This document shows positions 11,390-59,721 of a stretch of DNA of 64,000 nt, piece by piece (the first letter of the stretch is position 1; each line of letters begins with the position of its first letter). The stretch is taken from assembly GCF_000337495.1 (NCBI RefSeq), contig NZ_AOIS01000045.1:147079-211078 (forward strand), read 5' to 3'. This DNA comes from Haloterrigena salina JCM 13891 (GTDB lineage: Archaea; Halobacteriota; Halobacteria; Halobacteriales; Natrialbaceae). The notes beneath the pieces were generated by a model. That model searched no databases, was not told the DNA's origin, and saw only the letters and a program-made list of their open reading frames with translations. The position numbers and the translations under genes are program-made.

Positions 11390-11701
11390 CTATTCGCCCT
11401 CGAGGGGCTCTCCACGCCGATCGATGCGCGTCGCCGGCAGCCCGGCTCGATCGGCGTGTTCGCGGATGGCATCCTCGCTCTCGGCTCGGTAGTGACAGAA
11501 CGTGCCGGTGACGTCGCCGTCCTCGGTGGTCAGGACTTCGGATTCGACCCACCGGATGCCGACACCCTCGTCCCGGAGAGTCGACAGCGCCTCTCCGGAT
11601 TGCTCGCCGGCCGCCTCCAGTTCAGCCTCGGTGATCGGTTTGTCCAATTCGCGGAGGATGAGGAAGTCCTCCAGCTCTTGCTCGCGATCGTGTTCGGACA
11701 T
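11390..11701 (-). CDS. DUF4242-like (nickel-binding-protein-like) small protein
   Basis: 103 aa, ATG 11701. An N-terminal helical part is followed by GIRWVESEVLTTEDGDVTGTFCHYRAESEDAIREHADRAGLPATRI. This matches the DUF4242/SCO4226-like ferredoxin fold pattern (RW.xS....DG...C.Y.A...A.REHA.R.GLP). Some relatives bind nickel or other metals; the single conserved Cys and a nearby His are present here. Role unknown. The spacing to the upstream UbiA gene (80 bases, same strand) could allow a common transcript. Confidence 0.7.
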   Translation of the reverse strand: MSEHDREQELEDFLILRELDKPITEAELEAAGEQSGEALSTLRDEGVGIRWVESEVLTTEDGDVTGTFCHYRAESEDAIREHADRAGLPATRIDRRGEPLEGE

Positions 11702-28115: not shown

Positions 28116-29600
28116 ATGTGTTCCTTCGGTCACGACGAGCAGACCGCGGTTGACGTCCGGAGCGGCGAGTCCAACGGCCCGCTCGGACTGGAGAGCGGAC
28201 TCGACGCCCTGCGCTCGAGTCCGGAATTTCGCGGTCCCGTCGAGTCCCTCGGCGAGCACGAGCCGAACGAACACCTCGCGGTGATCTACGAGGACCGGGA
28301 CGAGCAGCTCGCGGCCGTCGTCCCGTTCGTGCGCCAGGGCCTCGAGCGGGGCGAACGCTGCATGTACGTGGTCAACGAGAACACGAGGGCTGAGATGACG
28401 GCGGCGATGGAAGACGGCGGCATCGACGTCGACGCGGCGACGGAATCCGGCGCGCTCACCTTCCACACGATCGGGGAGACCTACCTCCGAACCGGCCGGT
28501 TCGATCCCGACGACATGCTCGAGTGCTACCGGGACGCCATCGAGGCGGCTCGCGACGACTACGCGGGGCTGCGCATCAGCGCCGAGACGACCTGGATCGT
28601 AGACGAGGGAACGAGCCTCGAGCAGTTCATGGAGTACGAGAGTCGGGTCAACGACCTCTTCGACGGTGAGGACTGCATCGCGCTCTGCCAGTACGACCGA
28701 AACGTGATCCCGGCGGAGATCCTCTGTGACATCGTCCGCACCCACCCCCACCTCGTCTATGACGGCGCCGTCTGCCACAACTTCTACTACATCCCGCCCG
28801 AGGAGTGCTTCGGCCCCGACCGTCCGGACCGCGAGGTCGATCGCATGCTGGGCACGCTCTACGAGCGAACGACGGCGAAAGTCGAGCGCGACGAGACGAT
28901 CGAGGCCTTGGAGGAGTCGAACGAACAGCTCCAGCGGTTCGCCTACATCGCCTCCCACGATCTCCAGGAACCGCTGCGGATGGTCTCGAGCTACCTCCAG
29001 TTGCTCGAGCGAAACTATCGCGACGACCTCGACGCGGACGCGCGCGAGTACATCGACTTCGCCGTCGGCGGCGCCGATCGAATGCGCGAGATGATCGACG
29101 GGCTACTCGAGTTCTCCCGGATCGAGACGGGCGAGACGACCCTCGAGCCGGTCGACTGCGAGGCCGTCGTCGAGACCGTCGTCACGGACCACCAGGTACA
29201 GATCGAGGAGAGCGGGGCGACGGTCGAGATCGGCGCGCTCCCGACGGTCAGGGGCGATCGGACCCAACTCGAGCAGCTCTTTTCGAACCTGATCGGCAAC
29301 GCGATCAAGTACCGCGGCGACGAATCGCCGCGCATCGAGGTCGACGCGACGAAGTGCGGCCCTAAGTGGCGACTCGCCGTGGCGGACAACGGGATCGGGA
29401 TCGATCCCGACTACCACGACCAGATCTTCGACGTCTTCAACCGGCTCCACGCGATCGGGGAGTTTCCCGGCACCGGAATCGGCCTCGCGCTCTGCCGGCG
29501 GATCGTCACCAACCACGGCGGGGAGATCGGCGTCGACTCCGAGCCGGGCGAGGGGACGACGTTCACCGTGACGCTCCCGGCGACAGCGCCCGACGCGTAA
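28116..29600 (+). CDS. MEDS-domain sensor histidine kinase
   Basis: 494 aa, ATG 28116. An N-terminal MEDS (methanogen/methylotroph DcmR sensory) domain spans about 45-235 (NEHLAVIYEDRDEQLAAVVPFVRQGLERGERCMYVV is the classic start). After a coiled-coil linker the HisKA dimerisation helix carries the phospho-acceptor H281 in IASHDLQEPLRMV. The ATPase domain shows the N box (NLIGNAIKYRG), G1 (DNGIGID) and G2 (GTGIGLAL). There are no membrane helices, so it is a cytoplasmic sensor, possibly of redox or small molecules. No response regulator is adjacent; the orphan regulator at 49372-49824 is the only one in the window. Confidence 0.93.
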   Translation: MCSFGHDEQTAVDVRSGESNGPLGLESGLDALRSSPEFRGPVESLGEHEPNEHLAVIYEDRDEQLAAVVPFVRQGLERGERCMYVVNENTRAEMTAAMEDGGIDVDAATESGALTFHTIGETYLRTGRFDPDDMLECYRDAIEAARDDYAGLRISAETTWIVDEGTSLEQFMEYESRVNDLFDGEDCIALCQYDRNVIPAEILCDIVRTHPHLVYDGAVCHNFYYIPPEECFGPDRPDREVDRMLGTLYERTTAKVERDETIEALEESNEQLQRFAYIASHDLQEPLRMVSSYLQLLERNYRDDLDADAREYIDFAVGGADRMREMIDGLLEFSRIETGETTLEPVDCEAVVETVVTDHQVQIEESGATVEIGALPTVRGDRTQLEQLFSNLIGNAIKYRGDESPRIEVDATKCGPKWRLAVADNGIGIDPDYHDQIFDVFNRLHAIGEFPGTGIGLALCRRIVTNHGGEIGVDSEPGEGTTFTVTLPATAPDA

Positions 29601-41109: not shown

Positions 41110-41826
41110 CTACTCCGCGACGACGGTCTCGAGGCGTTCCTGCGCGTCGGGAAACATGACGTTGTTCTCCTTGTGGATGTGCAGGTGCATGTCCTCCTCG
41201 AGCAGTCGCAGCCGGTCGAGCATGTTGCGATAGCTGGTACACGCGCCCTCCGGGACCGCGTAGTCGTCGGTCAGCGAGCGGAGCCGCTCGAGGTGGGCGG
41301 CGGCCGCGTCGTGTTCGTCCTCGAGGTGGTCGATCGCCTCGCGGATGCGCGCCTCCTCGTCGCCGGTCAGCGCCGTCTCGTCCTCGAGGCGCTCGAGTTT
41401 GGGGAAGACGTTCTCCTCCTCGTCCTCGATGTGGTGGGAGACCTCGTCTTCGAGGTCGAGAAACGTCGATTCGATGTCGCGGAGTTCCGGGTGGTCGTCC
41501 CCGTGGACGCGGACGACCTTCCGGACCGTTCGCTCGAGCGATGGCAACTCGGCCCGGAGGTAGTCGTGGTGGGTCTCGACGATGTCGTCGACGAGCGCCG
41601 ACAGTGAGTTCCAGCCGTCGGTTCCGTCGCCGCCGTCCGACCGCGAGTCGCGGAGTCGCTCGACGACGGCCCCGACCTCGAGGTCGGCGTCGGCACAGGC
41701 CCGCTCGAGCGAGTCGTCGCCGCCGCAGCAGTAGTCGATGCCGACGGATTCGAACACCGACGCGAATTCGGGGTTGTCCCTGACGAGCGCTCCGAGTCGT
41801 CGCTCCGGATTGATTTCGTCCGTCAT
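41110..41826 (-). CDS. Di-iron iron-sulfur cluster repair protein (RIC/ScdA/YtfE-like)
   Basis: 238 aa, ATG 41826. The N-terminal ScdA_N domain (LGALVRDNPEFASVFESVGIDYCCGG) carries the conserved C33-C34 pair. It is followed by a hemerythrin-like four-helix bundle with metal ligands in THHDYLRAELP, HHIEDEEENVFP, HLEDEHDAAAAHL and HIHKENNVMFP. Members bind a mu-oxo di-iron centre and help restore iron-sulfur clusters damaged by nitric oxide or oxidants. About 96 bases upstream is an exact palindrome matching DtxR-type iron-regulator operators, so iron-linked control is likely. Confidence 0.93.
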   Translation of the reverse strand: MTDEINPERRLGALVRDNPEFASVFESVGIDYCCGGDDSLERACADADLEVGAVVERLRDSRSDGGDGTDGWNSLSALVDDIVETHHDYLRAELPSLERTVRKVVRVHGDDHPELRDIESTFLDLEDEVSHHIEDEEENVFPKLERLEDETALTGDEEARIREAIDHLEDEHDAAAAHLERLRSLTDDYAVPEGACTSYRNMLDRLRLLEEDMHLHIHKENNVMFPDAQERLETVVAE

Positions 41827-42146
41827 CGGTCCTGAACGGCGGCGGTGTGTGGTTCAACTACGATACCGTTTCGACTGAGATTTCGCCGGAGGAATCGGTC
41901 GTCATCGTCGTCTGCCATTTGTTTAGGCTCGCCTAAACTCATACAGTCGGAGAAAGCGACGCCGCGTCGAAGGTGATTTTCCCGAACATGATCGGGTAGA
42001 TCGGCGCGGTCTCGAGACGCCCGCTCCGAACGCGGACGCGTCGAGCGACTGGCGCGGTGCCACCGATCGACGGCACGGTTCCGGAATCGAGAGTTCGATC
42101 CCGGCGACGACCCCCGAGAGAACGAGCCGCGATCGAGCGGAGATCG
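41827..42146. other. 320-base spacer between the Fe-S repair and PAC2 genes
   Basis: This is the upstream region of the Fe-S repair gene and the 3' flank of the PAC2 gene (same strand). Apart from the iron-type palindrome at 41922-41939, it contains no recognisable gene. The sequence between the palindrome and the start codon has weak TATA-like words only (GGTATCG on the minus strand). Confidence 0.5.
41922..41939. promoter_or_regulatory. Perfect palindrome, candidate DtxR/SirR/Idr iron-regulator operator
   Basis: GTTTAGGC-TC-GCCTAAAC is an exact 8-base inverted repeat with a 2-base centre. It contains the TTAGGC...GCCTAA pattern of metal-dependent DtxR/IdeR-family operators and of the haloarchaeal Idr/SirR relatives. 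It lies about 96 bases upstream of the Fe-S repair gene start. The regulator itself is not encoded in the window. Confidence 0.65.
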
Positions 42147-59400: not shown

Positions 59401-59721
59401 GTGACCCACTCTGCCGTCCACCTCCTCGGCATTCCGTTCGCGATCATCGCCGGCACCGGGGCCGGAGTGTTCGCGCTCCTGTCCTGGGGAATCTTCCGGG
59501 ATTCGCCCTTCGGAACGGCGATCGCGCTTCTCTCGGTCGGGATGGTCGCGCTGACGATTTACCACACGATGTTACTCGTCGTCGAGCCGGCATCGCCGGT
59601 CCTGGACGTTCTCCGAAGCGCGGCGAACACGATCGTCGCGATTTTCATCGGCCTGCTGATACTCCGACACCGGCAGCTCCGACGCGATCGATCGGGAGGT
59701 GAGGCCGCGTGGACGGACTGA
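59401..59721 (+). CDS. Small three-helix membrane protein
   Basis: 106 aa from GTG 59401. Three hydrophobic helices (IPFAIIAGTGAGVFALLSWGIF; GTAIALLSVGMVALTIYHTMLLVV; NTIVAIFIGLLIL) and a basic, hydrophilic tail (RHRQLRRDRSGG). It overlaps the next gene by 13 bases, so both are translated from one message. No family recognised. Partner of a membrane-anchored helix-turn-helix protein (next entry). Confidence 0.75.
   Translation: MTHSAVHLLGIPFAIIAGTGAGVFALLSWGIFRDSPFGTAIALLSVGMVALTIYHTMLLVVEPASPVLDVLRSAANTIVAIFIGLLILRHRQLRRDRSGGEAAWTD

Follow-up and report, generated by a model that had tools for sequence, protein, structure and literature searches.

The usual view of RIC proteins is that they repair damage caused by nitric oxide or oxidative stress. 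In bacteria, the ric genes are under the control of different regulators: NsrR in case of E. coli ytfE, SrrAB for S. aureus scdA, DnrD in P. stutzeri and NorR in R. eutropha. Expression of E. coli ytfE is also derepressed in fur and fnr mutants; as neither Fur nor FNR sites are recognised there, a review calls the effect indirect (PMC9268430). The same review presents iron control of RIC proteins only as this indirect Fur effect and contains no account of a ric gene with a direct site for an iron regulator.

Two types of described promoter elements are relevant here. In Haloferax mediterranei, denitrification promoters have the consensus CGAAYATDKTYG (PMC10062603, PMC11218638), which is located 66-79 bp before the ATG (PMC10062603). 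A pair of CCTAA repeats with four-base spacing constitutes the single-dimer half site of S. erythraea IdeR (PMC10317159).

Here we describe the promoter of a RIC gene in a haloarchaeal DNA stretch of 64 kb (64,000 nucleotides, called the window throughout). The type of box and its position resemble those of the Haloferax mediterranei denitrification promoters, many of the RIC genes compared here having the box 53-84 bp before the ATG; in the present RIC promoter it is followed by a predicted iron operator at the predicted transcription start. RIC would be an addition to the targets of an operator type that is already known.

The RIC gene and its upstream palindrome

The features of the locus are as follows.

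41110-41826, minus strand: RIC/ScdA/YtfE-type iron-sulfur cluster repair di-iron protein, 238 aa, ScdA_N plus hemerythrin
41823-41942, minus strand: 39-codon open frame beginning with ATG 41942, its TGA stop overlapping with the RIC ATG (ATGA), coding doubtful
41921-41938, without strand: iron palindrome GTTTAGGCTCGCCTAAAC, predicted single-dimer DtxR-family operator
41940-41943 (~41941), minus strand: transcription start as predicted, the distance to the start of the anaerobic box being 53 bp
41966-41973, minus strand: weak TATA-like stretch CCTTCGAC, ~25-32 bp upstream of the predicted start, proposed by position only
41983-41994, minus strand: anaerobic/denitrification-type box CGATCATGTTCG, one mismatch to CGAACATGTTCG, published consensus CGAAYATDKTYG

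The gene product matches the RIC profile TIGR03652 with 220.9 bits (cut-off 204.7) and contains the domains PF04405 (ScdA_N) and PF01814 (hemerythrin). Its best solved relatives among the PDB matches are the ScdA and YtfE structures, and its Cys-Cys and His/Glu positions are invariant across 20 relatives. Judged by profile and domains, 41110-41826 encodes a full, true member of the RIC/ScdA family, for which di-iron, repair or nitrite reductase activity is putative.

The palindrome is a perfect 8-2-8 repeat, GTTTAGGC-TC-GCCTAAAC, with the core TTTAGGC-NN-GCCTAAA, and matches exactly the inverted TTAGG/CCTAA half-sites of DtxR-family operators. The 19-bp four-repeat (two-dimer) DtxR box is not present at 41921-41938, where a single inverted pair spaced by 4 bp matches the single-dimer half site of S. 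erythraea IdeR. The site lies between two co-directional minus-strand genes, the RIC gene (start 41826) and a PAC2-family gene (end 42147), at 208 bp from the end of the latter; the end of its 16-base core is 95 bp upstream of the RIC ATG. Because the PAC2 gene is co-directional and upstream, RIC is the only ordinary-sized gene that the palindrome could control.

There are 48 inverted repeats with arms of at least 8 in the GC-rich window, so the 8+8 symmetry by itself is ordinary and means little; the unusual part is the AT-containing sequence. The pattern TTAGG-N(0-6)-CCTAA occurs in the window in a single copy, the RIC palindrome, and dinucleotide shuffles give 0.00 expected matches to the 18-mer at ≤3 mismatches. 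An earlier note on this DNA had described an exact 8+8 inverted repeat with TTAGGC/GCCTAA half-sites at 41922-41939, upstream of a RIC/ScdA-like gene and nowhere else in the window. Direct inspection bears out the repeat and its half-sites, the pattern search its uniqueness, and both the gene assignment and the upstream location are sound, but the true position is one base lower.

A predicted genome-wide iron regulon

The 4.84-Mb source genome (Natrialbaceae) was searched for TTTAGGN4CCTAAA with ≤1 mismatch, using the reversed motif as a control. This yielded 24 sites, 15 of them exact, versus 2 for the control; the RIC palindrome belongs to the exact ones. Most sites are in promoters of iron genes, and the motif is found before nearly all iron-uptake genes. 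The genes downstream encode FecCD permeases, Peripla_BP_2 binding proteins, an ABC ATPase and a ZIP transporter, an aminotransferase/decarboxylase/IucA-IucC siderophore cluster and a DtxR-family protein (C60). The earlier note had staked its reading on further copies near iron genes, and these exist, before transporter, siderophore and DtxR-family genes. We take the 24-site set, including the RIC site, to be an iron regulon with predicted binding.

The single inverted pair with a 4-bp spacer is the form of the whole regulon in this genome. In most of these iron promoters the site is preceded by a TATA-like stretch and followed after 3-8 bp by a start codon, a position unlike that of the RIC site. 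Many sites are paired at a distance of 34-36 bp (L016, L019, L020, L021, L025, L026), while the RIC, ZIP and DtxR gene promoters have a single site only. The distance within the pairs corresponds to about three helical turns plus, which suggests two dimers per promoter. Two such pairs are flanked by divergent genes for which no iron-related role is apparent, L020:5588-5637 (C17) between DUF7090 and methyltransferase genes and L021:5676-5727 (C18) between DUF7551 and PHP genes; both gene pairs are candidate new members of the iron regulon.

The anaerobic-type box and the predicted start

An anaerobic-type box appears to be kept before most haloarchaeal RIC genes: a CGAACATGTTCG-like box with ≤2 mismatches precedes RIC in 26 of 45 promoters, versus 0.5 in dinucleotide shuffles, and this element agrees with the Haloferax mediterranei consensus CGAAYATDKTYG. 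The NarO-type arrangement has CGAAYATDKTYG ~45 bp upstream of the start site, from which the RIC box CGATCATGTTCG deviates by one mismatch. In three relatives (G037, G039, G118) precisely 53 bp separate the box start and the RIC ATG; therefore, the transcription start is predicted here at ~41941, just before the palindrome. The TATA-like stretch CCTTCGAC aligns with CTTTTGCT, CTTTCGGC and CTTACTCT in relatives. As another ATG is found 3 bp after the palindrome core, the start site of RIC is ambiguous.

Elsewhere in the source genome, the exact consensus CGAAYATDKTYG occurs before a DUF2249 gene and the HTH_10 regulator gene that faces it, before a 4Fe-4S oxidoreductase gene, and before a truncated haemoglobin gene, where the 52 bp from box to ATG are further evidence for the start predicted at RIC; exact boxes are located at L217 (C51:23281), L218 (C51:24558) and L215 (C18:94750). 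The truncated haemoglobin gene faces a hydroxymethylbilane-synthase-like gene. For CGAWYATGTTCGG there are three matches in this genome, one within a MATE-like transporter frame and one without a clear downstream gene. In the window, copies of the CGATCATGTTCG type number 5 in all versus 0.55 expected, those with one mismatch being at 53-64 and 11685-11696 on the plus strand and at 29284-29295 and 59624-59635 on the minus strand. A link between RIC and denitrification was also sought via co-occurrence with NirK, but the profile TIGR02376 is too unspecific for this, matching 314 of 392 genomes.

Distribution of the palindrome among RIC promoters

The iron palindrome, with 0-1 mismatch, precedes RIC in 7 of the 45 promoters and is absent from most of these haloarchaeal promoters. 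The carriers are G000, G025 and G026 in the own genus, G009 and G010 in g4, and G080 and G081 in g16; in g4 and g16 the palindrome is present while the remaining promoter sequence is different. In all seven, the distance from the start of the anaerobic box to the palindrome is 55-57 bp, whereas the distance to the RIC ATG ranges from 76 to 123 bp. The strongest indication that this layout matters comes from the spacing, constant as it is among promoters of otherwise different sequence.

In the RIC tree, the carriers fall into two separate clades and the label needs at least 4 changes, consistent with common descent plus losses or with separate gains alike. Two close relatives deviate: in G027 the RIC site has decayed to 3 mismatches, and in G051 it is lost or degraded, while the two genomes retain 18 and 32 sites, respectively; because these relatives keep their regulon sites, the iron link at RIC appears dispensable. 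The suggestion of the earlier note that Fe-S repair is tied to the iron regulator is supported by the genome-wide motif but applies to particular lineages, most RIC promoters being without the palindrome. The putative iron link is layered on the more widespread anaerobic/N-oxide-type box, which was absent from that note.

Candidate DtxR-family regulators

The source genome encodes at least three DtxR-family proteins, at C37, C67 and C60, with PF01325 over the cut-off and DtxR-like structure matches. One is a SirR-type protein of 225 aa with a FeoA domain, another has 143 aa and a Cys-containing tail, and the third has 133 aa and a weak metal-binding domain (PF02742 20.9 bits, cut-off 27). The paralogs match the MntR and DtxR models of NCBIfam, all below cut-off.

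Only the 133-aa paralog (C60) has its own upstream site, and this was the case in 7 of 7 carrier genomes examined (G000, G025, G026, G027, G051, G009, G010). The 133-136-aa genes (L024:4580-5129, C60; also L198-L204) have an iron-type site and a leader of ~130-170 bases. This self-regulated paralog was rejected as the sole binder, because genus g16 is without it, yet retains the motif regulon and the RIC site. Every genome examined has the SirR-type and the Cys-containing paralogs, even G088, which shows no enrichment of the motif, so that co-occurrence does not single out one of them. G088 also has a DtxR-family gene at a distance of 4 kb from RIC; the two share no operon. The present comparisons tie none of the at least three DtxR-family proteins to the RIC site.

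Discussion

We propose, with a probability of about 0.7, that the palindrome is a genuine DtxR-family iron operator and that RIC belongs to the iron regulon through a composite promoter that also contains an anaerobic/N-oxide box. This proposal draws on the motif, the genome-wide regulon, the identity of RIC, the conserved box and the spacing that is fixed in two RIC clades, all established at the level of DNA and protein sequence. In the mechanism that we infer, an HTH_10 (NarO/DmsR/Bat)-type activator would bind CGATCATGTTCG at about -53 to -42, counted from the predicted start, and would recruit the transcription machinery to the weak TATA element. An iron-loaded DtxR-type dimer, presumed to occupy about +3 to +20, would block initiation or promoter escape, so that the sign of its regulation would be negative. 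Output of RIC would then peak under anaerobic or nitrosative stress AND iron shortage, when damaged Fe-S clusters might not be simply replaceable. More tentatively, at slightly less than even odds, the fixed spacing of 55-57 bp may serve to put the iron regulator on the start site, nitrosative and iron inputs being combined by direct binding in an arrangement gained or kept in two RIC clades.

An unlikely alternative is a standard promoter of the iron type, with TGTATGAG directly upstream as the TATA-like element, the site at ~-20 to -5 and a start at ~41918, which would mean plain iron repression with the anaerobic box as a relic or a separate element. The other iron promoters of this genome do, as a rule, have the order TATA, palindrome and an ATG after 3 to 8 bp, and the RIC promoter has an ATG 3 bp past the core. 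However, this ATG is absent in G025, G026 and G027, the sequence immediately before the site shows no TATA-like stretch in G009, G010, G080 and G081, and it is the distance to the anaerobic box that the palindrome holds, not that to any ATG. Less probable still is that a DtxR-family regulator acts positively at the site, or that another paralog or metal, e.g. manganese, is involved, so that the site would not stand for iron repression. Idr1 and Idr2 of Halobacterium reportedly both repress and activate, the paralogs of the source genome resemble MntR as well as DtxR models at sub-threshold scores, and the metal-binding domain of the self-regulated one is weak. Against this, the co-regulated genes serve mostly ferric-siderophore transport and siderophore synthesis, functions that are normally iron-repressed, and the palindrome overlaps the predicted start, which speaks against positive action.

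We regard it as very improbable that the palindrome arose by chance, serves as a terminator of the PAC2 gene or is the by-product of a conserved short frame, even though the window has many palindromes with arms this long. The site could form an RNA hairpin of 7 pairs, but it is not followed by the T-run of an archaeal terminator, and there is no Rfam match. The 39-codon frame spans the palindrome, which makes up its codons 2-7, and begins at the predicted transcription start; it is open in 5 of 5 close relatives, with indels of whole codons. Its substitutions (87/128/135) do not make the third positions clearly the most variable, and the in-frame ATG after the palindrome is not conserved, so that a short upstream peptide is doubtful given this weak coding signal. 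The chance expectation of 0.00, the membership in a regulon of 24 sites and the fact that a second RIC clade has the palindrome at the same position of the promoter likewise argue against these explanations.

Under the composite promoter that we favour, RIC probably answers to iron supply plus anaerobic or nitric-oxide stress. Should the operator be functional, iron supply would directly set Fe-S repair, or else iron donation or nitrite reduction, in some haloarchaea, and such a two-input promoter is testable by point mutations in a genetically tractable group. The analysis also provides a clear, self-consistent predicted iron regulon of 24 sites for a Natrialbaceae genome.

The operators of this regulon share the TTAGG/CCTAA inverted half-sites with the 19-bp DtxR/IdeR operators of Actinobacteria (TTAGGTTAGSCTAACCTAA), and both types are located before siderophore and iron-uptake genes, overlapping the promoter start region. 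In contrast to the actinobacterial four-repeat box, the sites here have one inverted pair with a 4-bp spacer in an archaeal promoter, and often there are two such sites 34-36 bp apart. As in the described haloarchaeal systems (Idr1/Idr2/SirR of Halobacterium, Idr/SirR/TroR of Haloferax volcanii), three DtxR-family proteins are found here too, and the regulon is of the same type, with iron transport and siderophore genes. With bacterial ric regulation the RIC promoter would have anaerobic or nitric-oxide-linked control in common, predicted here from the box, while a predicted direct iron-regulator site sets the haloarchaeal RIC gene apart from E. coli ytfE.
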